Shown here piece after piece: positions 79 through 28,429 of a stretch of DNA of 64,000 nt. The translations under genes and the position numbers were made by a program. The stretch is from positions 1-64,000 of the forward strand of contig CAMEZO010000001.1 in assembly GCA_945947905.1 (NCBI GenBank). The letters run 5' to 3'. The stretch is from an uncultured bacterium. GTDB taxonomy: Bacteria > Verrucomicrobiota > Verrucomicrobiia > Verrucomicrobiales > Akkermansiaceae. The stretch's first letter is position 1, and each line of letters opens with the position of its first letter. Below the pieces are notes generated by a model. The model searched no databases. It was not told the origin of the DNA and saw nothing but the letters and a program-made list of their open reading frames with translations.

Positions 79-590
79 GCATCTTCCTTCTGGTTCTGTA
101 GGCCTGCTTGGGGTGTGTTTCGTTTTCCGGGAAACGAAACTCCAACTCCCCCTTTGCCTCGAGCAGCTTCAAAGTAAAGTGGAGGGGATGAGGATGACGA
201 TCCAATGCATTTGCAATCTCTGTCAGAACTAACCATCGATCTCGATAGAGGTCCAGGATGGCCTGCTTCATTTCCTCGGCCTTGGCACGCTTCTTCTTTC
301 GAATGAGGATAACGCTGGACGGCAGATCCTTGATATCGGCATCGGTCTGCTTCTGCCGGAGACCATAGGTTTTGCCGCTGGCACATCCACACGCATGCAG
401 ACCCCCGACTTCTCCAAGTCCTTCAAGATCTCCTGCACCCTATATTTGGGTAAAAACGCCAGTGCTTCTGCAAGCTCAACGGTAGTCGGCTCGCTCCCTA
501 GCGGCGAGGAGATCCCCACTCCACAGGCTATCGTGTTATGGATACCTTGCGAAGCAGATTTACCCTGCGGCGCGGGGGCTTCCTCGTGAG
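74..590 (-). pseudogene. Frameshifted remnant of a protein with apparent helix-turn-helix-like segments
   Basis: Two minus-strand frames read as one protein (…TTVELAEALAFLPKYRVQEILKDLEKSGVCMRVDVPAAK / TYGLRQKQTDADIKDLPSSVILIRKKKRAKAEEMKQAILDLYRDRWLVLTEIANALDRHPHPLHFTLKLLEAKGELEFRFPENE…) if one A is restored in the A-run at 370-373; no in-frame ATG at the 5' side. Confidence 0.5.
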
Positions 591-11987: not shown

Positions 11988-14048
11988 TTACTTCTTACCC
12001 TTGGGAGCGGGCTTGGCAGACTCGCCGAGCACCTCGCTGAGCGGGAACTTGAGGAAGCCGATACCGTGCATTCCGGAGGACTCGGAACTGTGGGGAGCCT
12101 CGTAGAAGACACCGACGGTATTCTCGTCTACCATGGTGAGGCAGGAGTAGCCCCAGCAGCCGCGGGTGTCGTATTCCAAGCCCTCATTCCACGTCTTACC
12201 CTCATCACGGGAGGCGCGGATCGTCATGTGGCTGCGGTTGCCGGCCTTGGGGTTCGAGAAGAGGAGGATGCGACCGTACTTCTTGGAGTTGACCGCGATG
12301 AGCGAAGCCTGGCAAGTGGGCTCCTGCAGGGCCTTGAGGTTGGTCTCATGCGGCTCCCAGGTTTGGCCGAGGTCCTTAGTCACATAGACCACACGCTTAC
12401 CGCTGCGCCACTCGTTGCGGCAGTTGAGCATAAGGGAACCGTCCTTCAGCTCCGCCACCTGGCACTCCGAGGTAGCGTGGGGGATACCGGTGCCGTACTG
12501 CCAAGTCTTACCGCCGTCCTTCGAGACGCAGAGGGTGCTCATGCACTGCTGCGGTTTGGCCCCGCGCTGCCAGATCTGAGCGGGGAACACGATGTAACCC
12601 TTGGAGGTCGTGATACCGTTGCCGGGCCCGGCGAGAATCGTGGTCCACTCCTCCTTCTTCACCTCCTTGGTGATGTCCACAAGCTCCTTGCTCCAGGTCT
12701 TGCCGTCGTCATCGGAGTAGGTCATGCACCACCAACCGGTATCCTTGCCGAAACCGGTCTTAGCCGTCCACAGGGAAGCGCCGCCGCCCCAGTGGCAGGT
12801 GAGGGCTTGCAGCCAAATGCGCCCGGTCTTGTCCTGCAGGATGCAGGGGTCACCGCAACCGTTATCAGCGCCTTTACCGGTATCCATCCCCACAGCCGGA
12901 GTGGTCCAGGTCTGGCCGCCGTCGGTAGAGCGCACCACAGCCACATCGATATCCGCGCAGAGGTCGCCGCTGTGATTGTAGCGGGCATCGAAGCAGCCGA
13001 TCAGGGTGCCTTTCTTGGTGCAAATAAGGCCCGGGATACGGAAGGAAACGCATTTGCGGGGCTCGGCACCGTCCGCCTGGTTACCGACGGTTTCATCGGG
13101 CACACACACCAAATAGCCGATACGGCGGGTAACCGGCGCGGTCTCGGGGGTAAAGGTAGCACTGCCGATCGTCACGGCAGGCTTGCTGATGGTCACCTTG
13201 CCACCCACCACGGCAGAATCGGAGGGGGTAACATCCAGCCAAATCCAGTTATCACCGCTCTTCAGAGTACTCCCGGCATCCCCGATAATGGTCACGGTAC
13301 CATCGGCGGAGGGGATACCGGTGCCGAGCACAGAGCTACCCACCCCCGTCGTGAAGTTGCAGCCGCCGGCATCGCTGCTGCGTAGGGTCACCTTCGCCAC
13401 CTGGTTCGGTTTATCCACACGGAACACCACCTTACCCACACCGGGGGCATTATCCAAGCCGGTGGTGGTCACCTTAAACCCGGTCACGGCGTTGATGGGA
13501 GCACGCTTGAGGATGGGGCGGGCATCCTTGTTTCCCACAGCTTCCACGCCCACCACCTTCATCGGACCGCTCGCAATCTGCAGGTCGTCAATCAGCACGC
13601 CGGCATCATCCGGCGTATCGGCGGTCAGCACCAAGCCCGTCGTACCGGCAGGCAACTGAACCTCCACATGGGTCTTGAAACCACCCGTCGGGGTCTTGGC
13701 ATCCAGCTTCTTAAGCTCCTTGAGCCCGCCGTTCACCACAGCGGAAACCTTCAACTCGAACGGCCCGCGCTTCGTCCAGCGCTCCACCCAAAAATCACAC
13801 GGCGCGGGGCTGCTCAACTGCTTATCCAGAGTGAGGGTAACCGTGCGACCGTCGCCCCCCAGCAAGCGGAGACTGTTAGGCGCACTGCGCGTATGCTCGG
13901 TAATCACGGCAGCATGCCCGGCCTCGGCCTGCAGCGTGCCGTACGCCGTACCGGCTTCGCGTAATGCACCGGCCTTCAGCGTGTCAAATCCTTCCGCGGC
14001 CGCGAAGGTGCCGCACGTCATCAGTGTTATGAGAACTGCTCGCGTCAT
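11988..14048 (-). CDS. Secreted exo-alpha-sialidase (GH33-like) with N-terminal accessory domain
   Basis: Signal peptide (MTRAVLITLMTCGTFAAAEG), FRIP motif (SFRIPGLICTKKGTLIGCFDAR), Asp-boxes (RSTDGGQTW, YSDDDGKTW, SKDGGKTW, SRDEGKTW). Start chosen at 14048. Confidence 0.92.
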   Translation of the reverse strand: MTRAVLITLMTCGTFAAAEGFDTLKAGALREAGTAYGTLQAEAGHAAVITEHTRSAPNSLRLLGGDGRTVTLTLDKQLSSPAPCDFWVERWTKRGPFELKVSAVVNGGLKELKKLDAKTPTGGFKTHVEVQLPAGTTGLVLTADTPDDAGVLIDDLQIASGPMKVVGVEAVGNKDARPILKRAPINAVTGFKVTTTGLDNAPGVGKVVFRVDKPNQVAKVTLRSSDAGGCNFTTGVGSSVLGTGIPSADGTVTIIGDAGSTLKSGDNWIWLDVTPSDSAVVGGKVTISKPAVTIGSATFTPETAPVTRRIGYLVCVPDETVGNQADGAEPRKCVSFRIPGLICTKKGTLIGCFDARYNHSGDLCADIDVAVVRSTDGGQTWTTPAVGMDTGKGADNGCGDPCILQDKTGRIWLQALTCHWGGGASLWTAKTGFGKDTGWWCMTYSDDDGKTWSKELVDITKEVKKEEWTTILAGPGNGITTSKGYIVFPAQIWQRGAKPQQCMSTLCVSKDGGKTWQYGTGIPHATSECQVAELKDGSLMLNCRNEWRSGKRVVYVTKDLGQTWEPHETNLKALQEPTCQASLIAVNSKKYGRILLFSNPKAGNRSHMTIRASRDEGKTWNEGLEYDTRGCWGYSCLTMVDENTVGVFYEAPHSSESSGMHGIGFLKFPLSEVLGESAKPAPKGKK

Positions 14049-14130
14049 ACACCTGTAGTTTATCACACACTTCCCCGCCTTGGCAAGCTTTTTTCTCGCC
14101 AACCCTCCCGTTTTTGTGTATAATACCCCC

Positions 14131-14766
14131 ATGAACGCCGAAACAGAGTGGAACAGCGTGACCATTGACGATGAGCAGCGTCCCCGAGTTTCCCCCGAGG
14201 ATCTGCGGGAAATGCTGAATGATTTGGACCCCGATGACTTTGACGAGGATGTGCAGAACTTCCTCGCGGAGCTGGAGCAATGCACCACCCCCGAGCAGGT
14301 GGACGAGCTGAAACCCGCCGCCACCCTACTTCTGCAGGACGAGGTGGGCCTCTCCCCCGATCTGGCCGCCATGGGGGTGGAACCGGATGAGGCTCTCATC
14401 CGCCTGCTCCTTTCCGCCGGTGCCGACCCGGATGCCACCAATCCCCACGGTCAACCGCCCCTCCACCTCGCTGCTTTCTACGGCTACGAAAACGTCGTTG
14501 ACATGCTCGTGGCCGCCGGCGCCGACCTCCGCCGCAAGAACGCCTCCGGCCTCTACGCCGCCGACGTCGCCGCCACCCACGGCATCGCCGACAAAATCCG
14601 CCCCACTATCTCCGGCAACGAAGACCTTCCCCCGGAAATCGAGGACGCCGACTACATTCCCCCCGACCATGAATGCACCTGCGGCTGCCACGAACACGGC
14701 GACCACGAACACCCCTGCCACTGCCACGAGCACGGCAACTGCGACTGCCGCGAACACAGGGAATAG
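14131..14766 (+). CDS. Ankyrin-repeat protein with His/Cys-rich C-terminal tail
   Basis: HGQPPLHLAAFYGYENVVDMLVAAGADLRRKNASGLYAADVAATHG; tail HECTCGCHEHGDHEHPCHCHEHGNCDCREHRE. Confidence 0.85.
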   Translation: MNAETEWNSVTIDDEQRPRVSPEDLREMLNDLDPDDFDEDVQNFLAELEQCTTPEQVDELKPAATLLLQDEVGLSPDLAAMGVEPDEALIRLLLSAGADPDATNPHGQPPLHLAAFYGYENVVDMLVAAGADLRRKNASGLYAADVAATHGIADKIRPTISGNEDLPPEIEDADYIPPDHECTCGCHEHGDHEHPCHCHEHGNCDCREHRE

Positions 14767-14826: not shown

Positions 14827-15423
14827 TCAGGAATATACAACCGCCCCGGCGAAGGAGGGAGCGGGGGAGAAGAGGTGGATGTGCGGTGGAGTGGGGAAGA
14901 GTGGGCGGATGCGGGGTGTAGGGTCGGGACCGGTCGGGGGGAGATAGAGGAAGGGGTAGTTGCGGGCGTTCCAGAGGGTATCGCCGGCATGCTTAACGAG
15001 GGCTTCGGCGGTGCACCAGCAGGTAAAGAACTCCGCGAGGGAGCAACCGCGTCGGGTGAAAGCCTCGAGCTGCTCCGGGGCCATGATTCGGGAGGCCAAG
15101 GAGAGAAGGCGGGTACGAGGGCGAATGCGCTCAATGTCCACGCCGACGTCGCTGTGGTGAAAAGCGAGGCAAAGAAGGTCGCCGGAGTGGCTGATATTGA
15201 AAGTCTGCGGAGCCCAGGCGGGTTTGCCGTGCGAACCGAGGGAAAAGCGTATCTGCTGCGGCGGCACACCCGTACGGCGAGAGAGTTCCCGCCTAAGGAG
15301 GGCACGGATGAGCGTAAACCTCGGCCCGCGCGCCGAAGCCTGCTCCGACTCCTCATCAGACAGCAGCGCCGCATCCTCCGGGGTAGGCGACAACTCGGCA
15401 AGGTTGTATACCAGATAATCCAT
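14827..15423 (-). CDS. 4'-phosphopantetheinyl transferase superfamily protein (Sfp-like)
   Basis: FNISHSGDLLCLAFHHSDVGVDIERIRPRTR and FFTCWCTAEALVKHAGDTLW motifs. Confidence 0.88.
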   Translation of the reverse strand: MDYLVYNLAELSPTPEDAALLSDEESEQASARGPRFTLIRALLRRELSRRTGVPPQQIRFSLGSHGKPAWAPQTFNISHSGDLLCLAFHHSDVGVDIERIRPRTRLLSLASRIMAPEQLEAFTRRGCSLAEFFTCWCTAEALVKHAGDTLWNARNYPFLYLPPTGPDPTPRIRPLFPTPPHIHLFSPAPSFAGAVVYS

Positions 15424-15920
15424 CAGATCCGGATAAACTCGACCGCGTGCGCCTCTGTATCATACACGGCAAACGAAGGATGCTTGTAATAAAAACCGCA
15501 GATTTCCCCGGGATTCACGAGCAAGAGCCCATCCTTCCGCGACTGATCAGCGCGGTGAGTATGTCCGTAAAACAGCACCGTTACCTCCGGATCAAGCTCT
15601 GCGGCCCTCTCTGCCCGCATCTGATAATGAGCCATCGCCACACGGCGATTTCCCAGTGAAAAGATACCGCAGAACTCATGGTGGCAGATTTGGGGATAGA
15701 GCTTTGCAACAGACCGATGCTCCGCCAATTCTTCCTCATTGTTACCGAACACAAGATGCAACGGACCGGACCACCTCCGTCCCAAGAGATGAAGAGTCGA
15801 GACCTCATCAATATCCCCCGCGCAGCAAAGCACCGTGCACCCGGCCTTCTCAGCGGCCTTCAATGCAGCCTGCAGCTTCTCCTCCTCATTATGAATATCA
15901 GAAATTACAGCAACTTTCAT
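15423..15920 (-). CDS. YfcE/MJ0936-type metallophosphoesterase
   Basis: VISDIHNEEEKL, CCAGDIDE, VFGNNEE, FYGHTHRADQ, LLVNPGE metallophosphoesterase blocks. Confidence 0.9.
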   Translation of the reverse strand: MKVAVISDIHNEEEKLQAALKAAEKAGCTVLCCAGDIDEVSTLHLLGRRWSGPLHLVFGNNEEELAEHRSVAKLYPQICHHEFCGIFSLGNRRVAMAHYQMRAERAAELDPEVTVLFYGHTHRADQSRKDGLLLVNPGEICGFYYKHPSFAVYDTEAHAVEFIRI

Positions 15921-15926
15921 AACAAA

Positions 15927-18041
15927 TCAGAATGACTTCTTAACGACAAACACCGGAGAATACGGCATCGCATCCCCGAAGGAACTCCCGCGCGGCGCAG
16001 CCGCCACCTCTCCATCCGCCACATACCACAGCATGGCATCCGGCGCAATCTCCGCGCACAACACCGGCACGCCATCCCCGCCGATGAAACCGGCATAGGC
16101 AGGACGCACCCTCATCAGGCTCTCAAAGTTATGCGCTATCTCCCTGTGATACCGGCGCAGCGGAAGCGACGCAAACCACTCTGCGCACATCTCCTCCGCC
16201 TGCTGATACTCCGGCGCATGCTGCAGCCAGGAATCTCCCTCCGGAGAAACAGGAAGCCGCTGCAACAAGGCATCGAACGACGCCGCATCCTCCATCAAGC
16301 TCGGCGAAAAACGCATCCCCACCATGGGAGGGAAAGGATGCCGCCGCATCGTCTCCAGCACGCGCTTGTAGACAAAAGCCTTGGCCAAGGCCGGGCAGAC
16401 AGGGGAGCGAAAAGCAGCCACCCGCGACAACACGGAAGGCAGGTTGGCCAGACGGAAGAAGTCATCCTTCTCCAGCCCGCAGAACTCCACCAATTTCGCC
16501 GCATTAATCGTGCGAATCTTCACCATCGTCGCAGGCCGCCAAACGAGCTCCTGCGACTCTCCCGCCACAAAATCCGGGTCCATGGGATGACGGGAAAAAC
16601 AAGCGGCATCCTCACGAATGGCAGGCTTTTCCCCGGAAAGCACGGGCGCGACCCCATCCATCGACAGCTCATAAAACGGGCGCCGAAGCGTCTGCGCCGT
16701 CAGCGGCTCATCCATCAGCTGAACCTGCTCCGCAGAAGCCGGCACACCCAGCGAGAACGAGGGTCCGCACTTCACCAGCGCACGCTGCACCTCGGCCAAC
16801 ATCTCCGGCGACAGCTCACGGCCGTGTGTCTGCATCAGCGTGCGCAGATTCTCCTCCTTCGGGAGACAAGACATCACCTTCTTGAGCTGCAAGGCCGGCG
16901 GATATGCACGCGGCTTAAACTTCGACAGCAACTCGACGTAGTGCGCATAACTTTTAGCAATAGGCAAATGATTCTGCAACTGCCGCATGGCCGCAAAATC
17001 AGCAAACAAAACCGAGATCTCCTTCAGGCGCACCTGCTCGTCCCTGAGCATATCCCGAGAAAGCGAAAATCGCGCTCCGTCCACCGAGAAAGCATCCACC
17101 CGAGCACGGAGCACCGCCGCCTCCGCACGCAGTGCTGCCTCATCCTCCGCCACATTCCCCGTGAACTCCGCCGGCTGCGGCAAAGGAGCCAACAGCAGGG
17201 CACAGAGAGCATTCTTCTCCTCCATGTAACGCGCAAACTCACCCCGCTCCATGGCCTGCCAACGTGCCGGCATATCCCCCCGGAAACAAACCGGCAGGCG
17301 GTTCAGACGCCGGTCGATACTCCTCTTCTGCTCCGCCGACAGAGAGGCAGCCGCGTCCTCCCTCGCGGCGAGTCGCGACAAGAGTTCCTCCAGCGCACGC
17401 GCCTCTCCGGAGAACGAATCCAGTTTCTGACGTGCCAAGGACAAGGTACTGCTCAGCGCCGGGTAGAACATCTTGTTCGCCGAGGTATCCGCCGCAGCCA
17501 ACACTGCCGGCAGGCGCATCCAATCATTCGCCGCCATGCACGCACGCACCTGCGCCTCCGCCCTGCGAGCCACCGAATGCAGGCGCACCGGCACACACAC
17601 GCCCCCCAGGCAGAGCAACCCTGCGGCACAACAGAGGACCACCCGACGCACCCGCCGAGCGCGTCGCAGGCGCAGAGCATGGCGCAGCGCCCGACGATAA
17701 TCGCGCAGTCCGGGCTCCTCCCCCGACACACGATCCAGCCGCTGACGCAGCTCCTCCTCCGGCACCGTACTCAGGCAGGTAGCATCCTGCCGAAAAGCCG
17801 CCAACTCCTCCGCCAGCAGCCCGGCCGCCTCCCGCTGCAGACGCGCCCGACGCTCGGCGGGGGTCTCCGTGGCCTGCAGCGGCTCCCCGCGCTCCAGGCG
17901 AGCCAACTCCGCAGACGCCTCGGGGTCCCCCGGGAATGCCTGCAAACGCTCCTCGAGCAGGGCCCGCACCCTCTCCCAATCCTCTGCCAGGGCAAAGCGC
18001 TTCAGCTCCCGGCGCCACCTGTTCAACGGCTCGTCCTTCAT
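15927..18041 (-). CDS. Uncharacterised membrane-anchored protein encoded with the GTPase/GAP1-like genes
   Basis: Starts MKDEPLNRWRRELKRF; single TM (VRRVVLCCAAGLLCLGGVCVPVRL); ATGA overlap with the upstream gene's stop. Confidence 0.8.
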   Translation of the reverse strand: MKDEPLNRWRRELKRFALAEDWERVRALLEERLQAFPGDPEASAELARLERGEPLQATETPAERRARLQREAAGLLAEELAAFRQDATCLSTVPEEELRQRLDRVSGEEPGLRDYRRALRHALRLRRARRVRRVVLCCAAGLLCLGGVCVPVRLHSVARRAEAQVRACMAANDWMRLPAVLAAADTSANKMFYPALSSTLSLARQKLDSFSGEARALEELLSRLAAREDAAASLSAEQKRSIDRRLNRLPVCFRGDMPARWQAMERGEFARYMEEKNALCALLLAPLPQPAEFTGNVAEDEAALRAEAAVLRARVDAFSVDGARFSLSRDMLRDEQVRLKEISVLFADFAAMRQLQNHLPIAKSYAHYVELLSKFKPRAYPPALQLKKVMSCLPKEENLRTLMQTHGRELSPEMLAEVQRALVKCGPSFSLGVPASAEQVQLMDEPLTAQTLRRPFYELSMDGVAPVLSGEKPAIREDAACFSRHPMDPDFVAGESQELVWRPATMVKIRTINAAKLVEFCGLEKDDFFRLANLPSVLSRVAAFRSPVCPALAKAFVYKRVLETMRRHPFPPMVGMRFSPSLMEDAASFDALLQRLPVSPEGDSWLQHAPEYQQAEEMCAEWFASLPLRRYHREIAHNFESLMRVRPAYAGFIGGDGVPVLCAEIAPDAMLWYVADGEVAAAPRGSSFGDAMPYSPVFVVKKSF

Positions 18042-20773
18042 TTTTCCTGAAGTGTAAAATACCACCGTAACTCCCCCTCCGCATCAACCTCCAGCCCCGT
18101 CAGCACCAAAACCAAGTGCCGCGGTGCCGGCTGCCGCATACTATCCTGCACCAAACGATTGAAAGTCTGCTGAAGCCCCCGCTGCAACACACCGCAAAGC
18201 TCGGCCCGAATGCGGCGGCGGTTGGCCGGCAAAGCCAAGGCCGCGCAGAGCTTCTCCCGAGCTTCCCGAGCCGAGGGCACATTACCGGAGGCGTCGCGAT
18301 GGTGCAGCGCCAGCTCCGGACAACGCACCAGAATCTTGCCCATCAGCTCCGCGAAACGTACATTGCGGAACAACTTGCAGTACTCCATGGCCAAGCGCTG
18401 ACGTTCCCCGCGCCCGAGGTTTTTACGCTCCAACTCCTGAAGCAGACACCACACACTCGCCAAGCTGTAGCGGGCATCCCCGTGCGGCTCCTCCCCGCAA
18501 CAGCAGGAGTTGGCCAACAGGTTAAACTGCTTGCTGAGCACAGCGGAGAAATCGAACTCCCGACTGACGGAACACACATAACCGACCTCACCGCCGCGTG
18601 CAGCACCGAGCTGCGCCCCCCACGAATAAGGCAGGCGCGGCGCGGCCTCCGGCACCAGCGCGCCCTTGCCGTGCAGCGCAGGAAGGTAGACCACCCCGCT
18701 CTGCGGGCGCAGGCGCAACTCCTGCCGGAAGGGAACCCAGGGGAACGCGTCATCGCGCAACCCCAGGCGGGCGGGGCGGGTTCCCGTGGCCGGAGACGCC
18801 TCCGGATCCGTCTCCGACAAATGGAATTGAAAGCGCTGCACCGCCGACGGCAGGGACGTACTGACCAGCTCGATCGGGATGCGCACGACATCCGCCACCA
18901 GAAGGCGCACGGTACCGCCCTCCGGGGAAGGGATGAGGAAGGAGGCCACCGCCGAACGTCCCCGAGCATCCCGAATGCTCTTAAGGTAGGCACCCTGCAC
19001 CGTAAACACGAGCAGAGGCTCCCGGGCCTCCCCGGCATCCGTAGATGACACACGCTCCAACACATAATCTCCGGCCTCCTCACTGCGAACCAAACGCAGG
19101 CGCTCCCCGGCTGGGGTCATCAAAGGCTTGACCTTGGGCGATTGCAGGGCGCGGGCCGAGAAGAGGCGCAGCTCCCCCGGCGGCAGGTCCACCGGCACGC
19201 GGGCAAACACGTTCAGCAGCTCCGGAGGCACGGCCCGGGTAGACAGGGCTGTCACCGCTCGCGAGGGTGCGGCAATCTCGGGGGGAGTTACCGGGCGCGA
19301 AGGCTCTGCCGGTCGGGGTTCCTCCTGCACCGCCACCGGCAGGGGTTCAATGGGTCTATCCCCTGCCAAGGGTGCCAAATAGGGCATCAACTCCGGCACC
19401 TCCAGCAGGTTTTGGCGCAGCATGGGCAGCTCATCCATCAGGCTCTGCCAGCTTTTCATTTCCTCGTCCTGCCCCATGGTATTCAGCCAATCCTCCACGC
19501 GGCAATGAGCCGTGGCCACATGCAGATAAAGGCGGCAAAGGGCGTCCTCATCCAGGTTCAGACGGCGGCCGCAGCCATCCAGTCGGCGCAGGTTATCCGC
19601 ATGACCGCTCCGCGCCACTGTGGCCAGCTTCAGGATAGTGACCACCTCCAGAACCGGGGCAACCTGCCGCCGGCGGGAGGCCGGGCAGGCGACCAGCCGC
19701 TGCTCCACCCCGGCGAGGGCTTTCTCGGCCGGTTCCGAAGCAAACGGGGAGAACATGAGAGCACGCAAATCATCCAGAGACTGCTGCACGGGATCTGCGG
19801 GGGGAATGGGTTGTGGAATCGCCACGGGCGGCATTTCCGCATAGCGAACACTGTATATCCAAGCCGCACCCAGTCCCAGTAACGCAGCCGATGCCACCCA
19901 CACGGCAGACATACCGCGGCGGCGTGCGGGACGGCAGAACACGTCCTCCTCCGCGCTTTCCTCATAGCGATAATGACCGTGCGGACGGGGGGACGCCGCC
20001 CCCGATTCGGCGGACATTCCGGGCACAACGCGCAGCACCCGCCCCCCCATGCGGGCCACGGCATGCTCTACCTCCGAACCGGCGGCAACCACCATGCGAG
20101 AGGTCACGCGGAAGGAATCCGTGCGGCATCCGTAGGTGGTGAAAGTCCTGCCCCAGCCCCGCTGCTCGGCCAGGGAATCGCTCTCGTGCAGCAACTCCAG
20201 AGCCGTCTCCGCCCGAGTCTCCGGCGGCAGGGTCAGCAGGCATTCTGCATCATACGGCGGTGCCGCGAGCAATCGCGCGCAGGCTGCATTCCCCGTGCAG
20301 GCGACCCAGGTGGGTTGCCCCTCTGCGGAAGGGAACGCAGCCGGGGTGAGGCCCGGCTCGGTCTCGAAATACTGCGGCCGCCCCTCCCAGCGTTCCGCCC
20401 AATAACCGATCTTCCGCAGGGCCAGCACCAGCCCCGCCGGGGTGGGATGCAGCGGGTTGGCGGCCATGGCGGCTGCCTCCTCGGCCGACAGGACGAAGTG
20501 GTGCGACAGGTAACAGGCTCGCCCCGTGTAGTCCGCTCCGGCTCGGCTCGTACAGGTAAACACATGGAAGACATGCGAGCCCATCGACACGAGGCGGTAG
20601 GAGTACTGCGGCCCGATGATACCGCAATCAACGGGTTCCTTCAGCTCACTGAGGGATACCAAGCGATCACACAGCAGCTTGGGCATGGCCACACTGCATG
20701 CCACCACACCGTAGCCGGATGTACCCGGCTCCAGCAATTCGGCGGCACTGGTGTAGACGAGCTGAAAGGACAT
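18038..20773 (-). CDS. GTPase-associated protein 1 (GAP1-N2-like) with a central TM segment
   Basis: QLVYTSAAELLEPGTSGYGVVACSVAMPKLLCDRLVSLSEL … FHVFTCTSRAGADYTGRACYLSHHFVLSAEEA resembles the GAP1-N2 pattern QL.YTSAPRGL.PG..GF.TVA.TRGMP…AG.DYTGR.N..AHHVVL; TM VWVASAALLGLGAAWIYSV. Confidence 0.7.
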   Translation of the reverse strand: MSFQLVYTSAAELLEPGTSGYGVVACSVAMPKLLCDRLVSLSELKEPVDCGIIGPQYSYRLVSMGSHVFHVFTCTSRAGADYTGRACYLSHHFVLSAEEAAAMAANPLHPTPAGLVLALRKIGYWAERWEGRPQYFETEPGLTPAAFPSAEGQPTWVACTGNAACARLLAAPPYDAECLLTLPPETRAETALELLHESDSLAEQRGWGRTFTTYGCRTDSFRVTSRMVVAAGSEVEHAVARMGGRVLRVVPGMSAESGAASPRPHGHYRYEESAEEDVFCRPARRRGMSAVWVASAALLGLGAAWIYSVRYAEMPPVAIPQPIPPADPVQQSLDDLRALMFSPFASEPAEKALAGVEQRLVACPASRRRQVAPVLEVVTILKLATVARSGHADNLRRLDGCGRRLNLDEDALCRLYLHVATAHCRVEDWLNTMGQDEEMKSWQSLMDELPMLRQNLLEVPELMPYLAPLAGDRPIEPLPVAVQEEPRPAEPSRPVTPPEIAAPSRAVTALSTRAVPPELLNVFARVPVDLPPGELRLFSARALQSPKVKPLMTPAGERLRLVRSEEAGDYVLERVSSTDAGEAREPLLVFTVQGAYLKSIRDARGRSAVASFLIPSPEGGTVRLLVADVVRIPIELVSTSLPSAVQRFQFHLSETDPEASPATGTRPARLGLRDDAFPWVPFRQELRLRPQSGVVYLPALHGKGALVPEAAPRLPYSWGAQLGAARGGEVGYVCSVSREFDFSAVLSKQFNLLANSCCCGEEPHGDARYSLASVWCLLQELERKNLGRGERQRLAMEYCKLFRNVRFAELMGKILVRCPELALHHRDASGNVPSAREAREKLCAALALPANRRRIRAELCGVLQRGLQQTFNRLVQDSMRQPAPRHLVLVLTGLEVDAEGELRWYFTLQEK

Positions 20774-20779
20774 AACAAA

Positions 20780-22519
20780 CTAGGATTGCGCACAGGGGAA
20801 GAGGGACGGCTCCGCACAACTGAGCACCCAGAGTAGCGGGTCCGTCACATGGAAGGGCTGTACCTGCCCGGAGGCGGGACCGATGAGCGTGGCCCCCGTA
20901 TCCGCATCCCGGAACTCCACGGGCGATTCCCCCAGAGCAGACACGGCGAAGTAGCGCACGTTGTTCGAGATCGCCTCGGCGTTGGTGCAGATATTCGGGG
21001 CCACATTGAACACCAGTTGGCGAATGCGAGCCGAGTTGATGTTGACATGCTCCGGCACGAACATACCGTTGTGCACCAAGGGCAGCAAAGGCTCCGGGCC
21101 CAGCAGGCTGCTCCAGGTATCGCATTTGCCCACCAACACGGCCAGTGGCACATCCAGCTTGGCATCCGGACCCAGATTCAGGCGCTTCCGCAAGCGCATC
21201 TCCGCCTCGGCCAGCATGGTGGCCTGGCGGCCGGGCATATGAAGGCAATGGCGAAGCTGGGGGTCCGGGTTGTCTTTCAGCACCGAGCGGAAGCCCGGGT
21301 TGACGGTCGGGTCGAAGAGGAAGAGGATGCCCGAGGAAACCGTGATGTGGCCGGCCGCCGTGTTCTGGGCGGCATCGCGTCCCGGCTCATAATTCTCGCC
21401 GGCATTATCATACAGCACCACCGAGTAACTGAGGCTGCCTTTGTTGATATTGTAGATGAAGGGGCGCGGCATATGGACGAAATGCGTCCCCACCCACACG
21501 CGGCGATAGAGGCTGCCCTGCAGCTTGGTCTTGCCGATGTAGGCCTCCTGCGGTGTGGTGGCGGAGAAGAGGCGCATCCGCATATCATTGAGCGGCGCAT
21601 TCCCTGCCGGGTCGGCGTCGCGGAAGGGCATCCCGAATTCCCGGGGTAGCTCCACTTCCAGTCGTCCGACCAGCGAGGCCATGTAGTAGGATTTTCCCGC
21701 TGCCGGCACCCCCACAATCGAGATAATGTGCTGCTTGGTGAGGTGGAAGAAAGGCGGCAACTTCATGTGGCAGCAGGGACAGGCCCAGTCCGTGCAGCTG
21801 CTGCCGTGCTCATCCAGGGGGAGCCCACGCTCATCGAATCGCTCGGGGACAAAGCGTTTCATGGCATCAAAGCCCAGTACATCATCCCCCACCAGATCCG
21901 GGGAGGACGCAATGGCCAGGGCATTCGCCGGGGCAAAAGTGCGCCAGCAACCGGGGCAGCGATACTCCCCTGCGGCGGCCTCATCCGCTAGGATGTCTTC
22001 CGATTCCTGGGGATACAGTCTGCGGTGGTTAGCCGCGCAGAGCACGTCGGCCACGTAAAATGCGCGGTCCCCCAGGCCCTCGAAGGTCGCCAATGCTCCG
22101 TCAGGGAGTTTATCAGCCAGCTCCGGGAGGTCCTGCAGGCGGATGGGGCCGGTCCATTGTCCCTCCGCCGGGTTGTAAACATACCAGCGATGCGGGTCCA
22201 GCACGGAGAAGTCCGGGCGCGTGGCGGCATCCCCGTACCAGGCCAGGAAGCACCCCCCGCCGAGCACAAACAAGTACATCACCCCCGGGCGTATCAGGAA
22301 GTCGGTTTTCAGGTGCTCGCCGTTCACGGAATAGAGCTCCACCCGGCCGTGCGGAAAGAAGCGGCAGGTCTCATCCCGCTGGGCGAAGGAGCCGGCCTCA
22401 TCCATGTCCATCACCACGCGAAAGGTACTGCTGCGCCCGGCCCCGATGGTCATGAAGTTTCCATCGGAGACGCGCAATTTGCCCACCAGGCAGTCATATA
22501 TGTACAGTTGATTATTCAT
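20780..22519 (-). CDS. P-loop GTPase with FHA-like and GYF_2-like N-terminal regions and a zinc ribbon (DO-GTPase-like)
   Basis: Walker A-like GVPAAGKSYYMASL; G3-like VVLYDNAGE; G4-like VGKCDTW; CPGC…CPCC; WYVYNPAEGQWTGPIRLQDLPELADKLPDGALATFEG GYF_2-like. Confidence 0.75.
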   Translation of the reverse strand: MNNQLYIYDCLVGKLRVSDGNFMTIGAGRSSTFRVVMDMDEAGSFAQRDETCRFFPHGRVELYSVNGEHLKTDFLIRPGVMYLFVLGGGCFLAWYGDAATRPDFSVLDPHRWYVYNPAEGQWTGPIRLQDLPELADKLPDGALATFEGLGDRAFYVADVLCAANHRRLYPQESEDILADEAAAGEYRCPGCWRTFAPANALAIASSPDLVGDDVLGFDAMKRFVPERFDERGLPLDEHGSSCTDWACPCCHMKLPPFFHLTKQHIISIVGVPAAGKSYYMASLVGRLEVELPREFGMPFRDADPAGNAPLNDMRMRLFSATTPQEAYIGKTKLQGSLYRRVWVGTHFVHMPRPFIYNINKGSLSYSVVLYDNAGENYEPGRDAAQNTAAGHITVSSGILFLFDPTVNPGFRSVLKDNPDPQLRHCLHMPGRQATMLAEAEMRLRKRLNLGPDAKLDVPLAVLVGKCDTWSSLLGPEPLLPLVHNGMFVPEHVNINSARIRQLVFNVAPNICTNAEAISNNVRYFAVSALGESPVEFRDADTGATLIGPASGQVQPFHVTDPLLWVLSCAEPSLFPCAQS

Positions 22520-22542: not shown

Positions 22543-22572
22543 GTTATAGCACAGAGGGTCTCCCTGCGTCAA
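22543..22572 (-). promoter_or_regulatory. Promoter TTGACG-N18-TATAAC for the GTPase operon
   Basis: Read on minus strand; 23-nt gap to the GTPase ATG. Confidence 0.65.
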
Positions 22573-25736: not shown

Positions 25737-26462
25737 ATGAATGCCTGCATCTCCCAGTGGATAGGCCGACGTAGCGAGCAGGAGGATGCCTACGCCGTGC
25801 GGCATTTCCCCACGGGAACGCTGGCCATCGTCTGCGACGGCATGGGTGGGCATTGCCACGGGGGACAAGCCGCCACCCGTGCGGCAGAGGCTTTTGCGGC
25901 GTCGTTCGCGGAGCAGTGCGGTTGTCCCATGGTGGACCGCCTGCGCGGGGCCCTGCATGCCGCTAACAAGTCTGTGGGCGAGCTGTTCCGGCAATGCGAC
26001 AGCTTCGGCGGGTGCACCCTGCTGGCGGCATTTATCGGCGGCAATGTGCTCTGGTGGATCAGCGTGGGGGATTCTCCCCTGCTCCTCTGGCGACGCGGGC
26101 GTCTGACGCGGCTGAATGCGGACCACTCCATGCGCAGCCTTTACGCTGATTTGGTGCGCACCGGCACGATGACTCATCAGGAGATGCTGCGCAGGGGTAA
26201 TATGTTGCGCAGTGCTGTAATGGGCGAGAGCATTCCCCTTGTGGACGCACCGCCTACCCCCTACCCTGTGCTGCCGGGGGACAAAATCATCCTTTGCTCG
26301 GATGGCTTGGATGATTTACTCCTCGGCTCTACCTTGCCCTCCTCCACCCGCAAGCTGCTTGACGCGCGGGGAGGCAATCCCGCGGCCCTGCTCATCGAGG
26401 CGTGCAGAGCCATGAACACGGACTACGCCGACAACGCAACGGCCATTACGCTCGACGTCTAG
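25737..26462 (+). CDS. PP2C-family serine/threonine phosphatase
   Basis: RSEQEDAYAV, CDGMGGHCHG, SVGDSPLLLWRRGRL, ILCSDGLDDLL, DNATAITLDV. Confidence 0.92.
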   Translation: MNACISQWIGRRSEQEDAYAVRHFPTGTLAIVCDGMGGHCHGGQAATRAAEAFAASFAEQCGCPMVDRLRGALHAANKSVGELFRQCDSFGGCTLLAAFIGGNVLWWISVGDSPLLLWRRGRLTRLNADHSMRSLYADLVRTGTMTHQEMLRRGNMLRSAVMGESIPLVDAPPTPYPVLPGDKIILCSDGLDDLLLGSTLPSSTRKLLDARGGNPAALLIEACRAMNTDYADNATAITLDV

Positions 26463-26494
26463 GCCTCTCGGCGCGCAGATTACGCACTTTACAC

Positions 26495-26523
26495 TTGCAA
26501 CACTCCGCCGACCGTGCTACAAT
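26495..26523 (+). promoter_or_regulatory. Promoter TTGCAA-N17-TACAAT, 7 nt before the coaE-rho ATG
   Basis: Read directly. Confidence 0.65.
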
Positions 26524-26530
26524 GTGCCGG

Positions 26531-28429
26531 ATGAAGTGTATCGTCATTACAGGCGGCATAGCCTCCGGCAAGTCCACCGTAGTTCAGCTGTTGCAGGAGC
26601 TCGGCGGGGAAGATTTGTGCGTTTTTGACAGCGACCGCGCAGTGGCGGAGCTGTTGGACGGCGGCACCCTGTCTGCGACGTTGGCAGAGACCTTCGGACC
26701 GGAGGCCGTAGATGCCGACGGCAAGGTGAACAAGGCTTTTCTGCGGGGGATTGTGGCGCATGATGAGGAGGGGCGCAGCAAACTCAATACGCTCATTCAT
26801 CCGCTTGTGGCCGAGCGCTTCCGTGCAGCGAAAATCCAGGCGAATAACAGCGGCAAATACCATACCCTGCTGGCGGATATTCCCCTGTACTTTGAGACAA
26901 CCGAGACTTTCCGCTGTGATCTTGTGTGCGCTGTCGCGACAACCGAGGAACAGCAGGTGCAGCGCTTGGCGGCCCGTAATGGCTTGCAGGAGGAGGAAGC
27001 CCGGGCTCTCATGGCCGCGCAACTCCCGACGGCGGAGAAGATGGAGCGCGCCGACGTTGTCATCCGAAACACCGGTTCGCAGGAGCTGCTTCGTGAACAG
27101 GTGCAGCTCTTTTACAACGCTGTCTTGGCCGAGGAAGTGACGGCCTTCCGTGCCAGAAACCTGGTTTACAATGCGAACGAACTGCGGGCGCTGCCGCTGA
27201 ATGATCTCCGCAAGCTGGCCGAGGAAATCCCGGGGAAAGACCTTCGGGACCTCACGCGCGCAGGGCTGGTCAACGCGCTCATGCACCATTATCTGGCGCA
27301 GGGCAGCAAGGTCGTCATCAGCGGTGTGCTGGAGTTTGTGCCCATGGGTGATTTCTTCCTGTTAAAAGACCCGGCGCGCAGCTTTAAGGCCGGCTCGGAT
27401 GACGTTTATATACCGGCCGATTTAATCAATAATTTCTCTCTGCGTGCGGGTAACATGCTGAAAGTCATGCTGCGCCGCCCGTCCAGCATCAAGAAGGACC
27501 GCTATCTGGCAGCCGGTCGAGTACTGGAGATTGAGGGGAAACCGGCGGAGGAGTTTTGCCAAGGCAAGGCTTTTGACACACTCACACCGCTCATCCCCAC
27601 ACAGCGGCTGCTGTTGGAGAATCCGGACATCAAGGAGCCGTCCATGCGTGTGCTGGATCTCATCACGCCCGTGGGCATGGGACAGCGGGCGCTCATCGTG
27701 GCTCCTCCGCGCGGGGGCAAGACAGTGTTGCTCAAGAACATCGCCCGCAGCATTCGAGCCAACTACCCGGAGGCTCACCTGCTGATCTTGCTGTTAGACG
27801 AACGCCCGGAGGAGGTCACGGACTTCGCGGAATCGGTGGATGCTCCGGTCTACGCCTCGACCTTTGATGAACCCGCCAAACGCCACGCGCTGCTCAGCGA
27901 CTTGGTGCTGGAGCGCGCAAAACGCCTCGTGGAGCTCGGTAAGGATGTGGTGATCATGCTGGATTCCCTCACACGACTGGCCCGCGGCTACAACGCTACC
28001 CAGAGCGGCGGCCGCACCATGAGCGGCGGCTTGGGCTCCAACGCTCTCGAAAAGCCCCGCAGATTCTTCGGCGCCGCCCGCAAGGTGGAGGAAGGGGGCA
28101 GTCTCACCATCATTGCCACCTGTTTGGTAGAAACGGAGTCCCGCATGGATGAGATTATCTTTGAGGAATTCAAAGGCACCGGCAACATGGAAATCCGCCT
28201 CGACCGCGAGCTTTCCGAACGCCGCATCTACCCCGCCATCTCGATCCCGCAGAGCGGCACCCGTAACGATGACCGCCTCTATCATCCGGACGAGTACTCC
28301 CGCATCCTGCAGCTGCGCCGTCAGCTCGCCTCCCTCCCCGGCTGGGAGGGGCTGGAAACCCTGCTGGCCAACATCGCCCGCACCCAAAACAACGCCGAAC
28401 TCCTGCTGAAGGGACTTACCATTCACTGA
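26531..28429 (+). CDS. Fused dephospho-CoA kinase / transcription termination factor Rho
   Basis: N-terminal CoaE ([29 protein letters not shown]) and C-terminal Rho ([81 protein letters not shown]) in one uninterrupted ORF. Confidence 0.95.

Follow-up and report, generated by a model that had tools for sequence, protein, structure and literature searches.

Is the GTPase cassette encoded in this stretch of DNA (64,000 nucleotides, hereafter the window) a conflict system or a machine of the cell envelope? The initial annotation proposed a three-gene GTPase, GAP1-N2-like and membrane-anchored cassette and labelled it conflict (defence-like). The question reaches beyond one locus: the whole class of such GTPase systems has been predicted to be defence from gene neighbourhoods alone, and the literature searched yielded no experiments on the predicted GAP1-N2/DO-GTPase system class. 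Here a gut genus carries the system in compact form, with a seemingly undescribed constant third component. In free-living relatives its core is linked to proton-channel motors, so the choice between conflict system and envelope machine becomes testable.

Operon organization and promoter

The window derives from a 2.19 Mb genome (97% completeness) whose nearest named relatives are Akkermansia MAGs, chiefly from animal guts. The three ORFs of the initial annotation (A, B and C; Table 1) are all present on the minus strand. They are not chance ORFs, as dozens of species share the frames and dN/dS values are 0.05-0.17. However, the unit is bigger than first reported. In the window and about 30 Akkermansia species, A-B-C runs gapless into yfcE-type and PPTase genes, forming a five-gene operon (A-B-C-phosphodiesterase-PPTase). 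Median gaps along A-B-C-yfcE-acpT in Akkermansia loci are 12, 2, 5.5 and 0.5 nt, and nearly all gaps are <50 nt.

Table 1. Positions of the genes, domains and promoter discussed in the text
Feature	Residues (aa)	Window position	Strand	Basis or remark
Gene A, GTPase, 579 aa		20780-22519	-	ORF list, alignment, models, profiles
FHA-like domain of A	1-104	22208-22519		AlphaFold/Foldseek
GYF-like region of A	105-172			Tentative
TRAFAC G domain of A	263-579			Motifs and fold
Gene B, GAP1-N2 protein, 911 aa		18038-20773	-	Pfam, TM scan
GAP1-N2 domain of B	1-107	20453-20773
GAP1-M-like region of B	159-247			By alignment to orthologue
TM of B	288-306	19856-19912		Unmentioned in the initial annotation
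Gene C, 712 aa, GTG start		15927-18065	-	Constant third component
TM of C	142-160	17586-17642
YfcE-type metallophosphoesterase (phosphodiesterase)		15423-15920	-	Fourth operon gene in Akkermansia
AcpT/Sfp-type phosphopantetheinyl transferase (PPTase)		14827-15423	-	Fifth gene
Sigma70-type promoter TTGACG-18-TATAAC		22543-22572	-	23 nt before ATG of A

Flanking ilvE, lysS, PP2C and rho genes adjoin the operon only in the closest species. The PP2C phosphatase gene (25740-26459), ~3 kb from the operon, was dropped as an operon member because it is adjacent only in those species. Downstream of the operon, 13 Akkermansia loci (13 species) carry a CAAX-protease-like gene and thiL, with dnaA next after thiL in the example loci; this thiL/dnaA neighbourhood is a stable chromosomal site. 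The thiL gene of the window genome is on a separate contig from the operon. The PPTase is the sole PF01648 match found in that genome, hence probably a housekeeping enzyme, and on the same grounds we rejected it as a defence component. A similarity search found no acpT in three complete Akkermansia genomes (G004, G015 and G017).

Two nearby ORFs are worth noting. One (26402-28429) fuses a dephospho-CoA kinase (aa 47-235) to transcription terminator Rho (aa 257-668). The other, a neuraminidase-like gene beside the operon end (11988-14441), is listed with a TTG start but probably begins further inside the listed ORF, given its overlap with an ankyrin-like ORF on the opposite strand (14080-14766).

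Almost every ordinary Akkermansia locus has a near-consensus sigma70-type promoter 12-37 nt before the A start (best scores averaging 9.8 of 12 vs 6.9 in shuffles; 29 loci). This promoter was missed by a general scan because that scan demands T at the last -10 position. Two loci of a second type (L052 and L062) are without it. The predicted strong promoter suggests that the operon would be constitutively expressed, as expected of a standing surveillance or remodelling machine, probably, and not of an induced toxin.

The GTPase

Every motif initially claimed for A is present (GVPAAGKSYYM, LYDNAGE, VGKCDTW, CPGC and CPCC). Residues G270, G275, K465 and D467 are invariant in 39 relatives, as are the cysteines of the zinc ribbon (C188xxC191...C247xxC250), which stands as proposed. 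A has one such N-terminal ribbon, where two are usual for GAP1-N2 GTPase-centric systems. It has no TM. The AlphaFold model (39 sequences as input; mean pLDDT 87) matches TRAFAC-type GTPases in the PDB by Foldseek (EF-Tu, Ras, G-alpha), and GTP binding and hydrolysis are predicted. The protein is a TRAFAC GTPase with a conserved Glu in its Walker B motif, encoded upstream of a GAP1 gene. PDB sequence profiles gave only weak, unrelated matches to A, B and C.

The proposed DO-GTPase assignment holds at family level, as DO-GTPase2 is matched by 34/39 relatives (best E 1.6e-7), some of which exceed the Pfam cut-off of 27 bits (31.4, 28.0 and 27.3). Window A itself scores 19.8 bits, under that curated cut-off, and is, by profile, predicted to be a remote DO-GTPase2 only.

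The FHA-like start noted in the initial annotation is borne out by the structural model: the first 100 residues adopt an FHA fold (3po8, TMt 0.77; 3gqs, 0.70). One relative passes the Pfam FHA cut-off (20.8 vs 20.7 bits) and resembles Yop-YscD_cpl too. FHA domains are expected to have a phosphothreonine-binding Arg after the first Gly. That Arg is not conserved in A (IGAG in the window), whose domain may or may not bind phosphopeptides. In the adjacent GYF_2-like stretch the motif is correct and the predicted secondary structure compatible, yet profile comparison gave nothing significant (hhalign probability just 6-9%), and we keep it as tentative. Seven protein-kinase matches were found in the window genome, and one species has a kinase gene immediately upstream of A.

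Two membrane-anchored partners

The reading of B, from its QLVYTSA start, as a GAP1-N2 protein is upheld by a significant Pfam match (41.5 bits; cut-off 24), and GAP1-N2 was found in 32/32 free-living B proteins. GAP1-M has no match in window B; one orthologue scores 30.8 bits (cut-off 24) and its matching part aligns to the region given in Table 1. The ~600 aa after the TM are predicted to lie outside the cytoplasm. Conservation of B is highest in the cytosolic head (median identity 34-37% vs 20% past the TM), and since some Akkermansia orthologues terminate shortly past the TM, head and anchor constitute the minimal B unit. Lys/Arg residues are in excess on the N-side of the TM in 30/36 proteins of the Akkermansia set, and this bias is weak in free-living B (20/32). 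For both B and C, topology was assigned from simple hydropathy and a charge count (positive-inside rule), not a dedicated predictor.

C has the single TM first reported, with more Lys/Arg on its N-side in all 54 C sequences having a TM. The N-terminus is weakly TPR-like, and about 550 aa are predicted to lie outside the cytoplasm. A Pfam search of C returned no family, and its confident AlphaFold-type model (pLDDT 87) had no fold match in the PDB by Foldseek (best E 0.24). Homology to B was considered and discarded (hhalign 4%). The free-living homologue is larger (~1000 aa), occupies the same locus position and is homologous over the whole length of C (694 aligned columns, hhalign probability 99.9%, E 1e-35). 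The family looks undescribed; nobody seems to have described it.

How constant is this third component? Among 80 loci, 71 had enough sequence for C, and in 67 of these Verrucomicrobiota loci C follows A-B; in four Akkermansia loci C is missing and other genes directly follow B. Of 291 Verrucomicrobiota genomes sampled evenly, 51 carry A and 37 carry C; in 32 of the 37 C-bearing genomes, A lies within about 6 kb of C on one contig. Given this pairing with A in both samples, C is a constant part of the system, not a variable effector. Thus, of the initial suggestion of a divergent partner or effector, the partner half stands, with C forming a conserved family of its own. The initial annotation had made its proposal depend on a GAP1 match and on co-occurrence of the genes; both were found.

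A is absent from many Akkermansia species, including all single-contig genomes sampled, and so is dispensable. Second, diverged A-B-C sets also occur in Akkermansia (L062:7259-18160 and L052:1934-10046), with PrsW-GYF, Sel1-ankyrin or Sel1 neighbours. Elsewhere, a Ser/Thr kinase gene directly precedes a C paralogue of ~880-900 aa (L160:4333-9816, and L164:1-4214, where the kinase gene is partial). C-type proteins may work with kinases too.

Selection and stepwise loss

Purifying selection acts on all five operon genes: relative to the closest species, dN/dS is 0.05 for A, 0.17 for B, 0.17 for C, 0.27 for yfcE and 0.20 for acpT. Values for comparison genes are 0.004 (lysS), 0.06 (PP2C) and 0.06 (rho), placing A close to Rho and PP2C. 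In other Akkermansia, B and C retain only about 22-33% identity vs 42-62% for A. This fast evolution also fits an arms race and counts against an envelope function.

Some loci have B-C-yfcE(-acpT) without A, one of them with a transposase-like gene beside B; further intermediates have an 83-aa A stub before C, or C-yfcE alone. A series with stepwise loss of A, then B, while C and yfcE stay can be seen in L154, L155, L152, L153 and L157, with C shortened in the last. Because C is kept without A or B, a role as an unchecked toxin would not suit it. Where A is gone, acpT and yfcE persist, and acpT occurs also apart from the other four genes.

Neighbours of the core in free-living relatives

Behind C, free-living relatives encode a protein that joins a GYF_2-like N-terminal domain to trypsin or to DUF4190, next a MotA/TolQ/ExbB protein and then a one-TM, ExbD-like protein. 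Where >3 kb is available behind C (29 free-living loci), the GYF-type protein is present in 22 and the MotA/ExbB plus ExbD-like pair in 15. One example of the GYF-trypsin/MotA/ExbD-like set after A-B-C is L116:17577-20646; 14 other free-living loci are similar. An aspartate occurs at the TM start of the ExbD-like protein in 14/16 cases. The search for a solved relative of this protein (F) gave coiled-coil matches only, and the 'ExbD/MotB-like' label rests on position, the one TM and the aspartate, with no solved relative. The set following the core is possibly a proton-driven machine. No ExbD-like gene was found in the 37 Akkermansia genomes searched, window genome included, and no MotA-like gene in the window operon. 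Trypsin, Sel1, GYF and PrsW genes adjoin related cores elsewhere.

A GTPase switch at the envelope?

So, is the cassette a defence system? The evidence points more to a long-standing cell-envelope machine than to defence, and a GTPase switch on two envelope-facing membrane anchors fits all of it. We favour, with intermediate confidence, an inner-membrane complex for surveillance or remodelling that is switched by a GTPase. Cytosolic A would be recruited to the GAP1-N2/GAP1-M head of B, a contact we infer. B and C would each span the inner membrane once, N-terminus inside and the large, fast-evolving part outside. Envelope events may then be relayed by B and C and shift the nucleotide state of A; alternatively, signalling could run the other way, with A driving a rearrangement of the B-C complex. 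In free-living relatives this core would be wired to GYF-trypsin and to a MotA/ExbB plus ExbD-like proton-channel pair, suggesting an energised trans-envelope machine, and Akkermansia retains the core alone. The energised part is not directly applicable to Akkermansia, since no ExbD-like partner was found in the genomes searched, that of the window included.

The leading rival, which we regard as rather unlikely, makes the cassette a conflict system of the GAP1-N2/DO-GTPase kind, directed at phage or otherwise. B and C would sense an invader at the membrane, with A setting the threshold; killing or arresting the cell would fall to an effector, either within the periplasmic parts or encoded in some other place. 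The conflict label of the initial annotation goes back to a published prediction (Kaur et al. 2020, PMC7159879), and homology to that predicted family speaks for this rival. The rapid divergence of B and C relative to A, the patchy presence within the genus Akkermansia, and the trypsin, Sel1, GYF and PrsW genes beside related cores are also consistent with conflict. However, independent support for the label did not emerge: searches of PADLOC defence profiles (not a functional test), for a recognisable effector in the window operon, for FNIII and for phage or plasmid copies of the cassette were all without match. We rejected mobile cargo for the same lack of phage or plasmid matches. Moreover, the housekeeping genes next door (thiL at 13 loci, dnaA at the examples), the strong general promoter, the low dN/dS and the retention of C where A, alone or together with B, has been lost all argue against conflict.

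The free-living loci suggest a bolder proposal, to which we assign a rather low probability: that in Verrucomicrobiota A-B-C is the core of a trans-envelope machine not described before, GTPase-gated and proton-motor-coupled, which also comprises GYF-trypsin, MotA/ExbB and the ExbD-like protein, is distinct from conflict systems and from Tol/Ton, and survives in Akkermansia in a stripped form.

A housekeeping operon of Akkermansia for envelope or lipid biogenesis, with the phosphodiesterase and PPTase as functional partners of the GTPase core, strikes us as improbable. It would explain the fixed five-gene order with tiny gaps in most Akkermansia loci and why no second PPTase turned up in the genome. 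However, the core has other neighbours outside Akkermansia, and both acpT and yfcE persist without A, acpT also away from the other four, so these two genes are more likely co-transcribed passengers. That the cassette is a decaying relic of a larger free-living machine, its motor and protease lost in Akkermansia and the remainder on the way out, is also improbable: the missing ExbD-like gene and the erosion series (transposase-like gene by B, 83-aa A stub, C alone) are suggestive, but the window and most relatives have all frames intact, with purifying selection acting on them, and promoter conservation likewise speaks against decay.

Comparison with known systems

GAP1-N2/DO-GTPase systems (Pfam PF20013, PF19993) have been predicted to be conflict systems, with Verrucomicrobiae named as carriers (Kaur et al. 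2020, PMC7159879). As in those systems, the GTPase gene precedes the GAP1-N2 gene, a zinc ribbon precedes the G domain, a Glu occurs in the Walker-B-like YDNAGE, and components are membrane-anchored. The GYF-trypsin and GYF-TM partners reported for Planctomycetes (PMC7159879) recur in free-living Verrucomicrobiota. An FNIII-repeat protein in the operon is given as usual for GAP1-N2 systems (PMC7159879). FNIII repeats were not recognised in A, B or C, nor in the free-living C that we tested, and for this reason we class A-B-C as a variant instead of a standard member. Variable effector genes were likewise not recognised in the window operon, and C is constant across the phylum. Further differences are the FHA-like N-terminus on A, the single GTPase gene, the constant membrane-anchored C family without a Pfam family, and the MotA/ExbB and ExbD-like neighbours in relatives; Kaur et al. 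(PMC7159879) do not mention MotA, ExbB or TolQ in their main text.

Two other systems invite comparison. YcjX (DUF463) is a membrane-stress GTPase encoded near PSP operons (PMC11237479), and the likeness is that of a DO-GTPase-related GTPase tied to membrane stress. However, the match is marginal and involves one A-family member (E 0.087), and PspA/B/C were not recognised next to A-B-C genes. Zorya (ZorA/ZorB; PMC11890865) resembles the loci of free-living relatives only, in its operon of a MotA-like proton channel, a one-TM partner and a soluble NTPase. The ZorA/ZorB-like motor pair is missing from the window operon. The GTPase-GAP1 core is presumably unrelated to the other Zorya components. 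The GAP1-N2/GTPase core is of an already predicted kind; to it the cassette adds the constant partner C, which looks undescribed, an FHA-like GTPase and, through its free-living relatives, a testable motor link.
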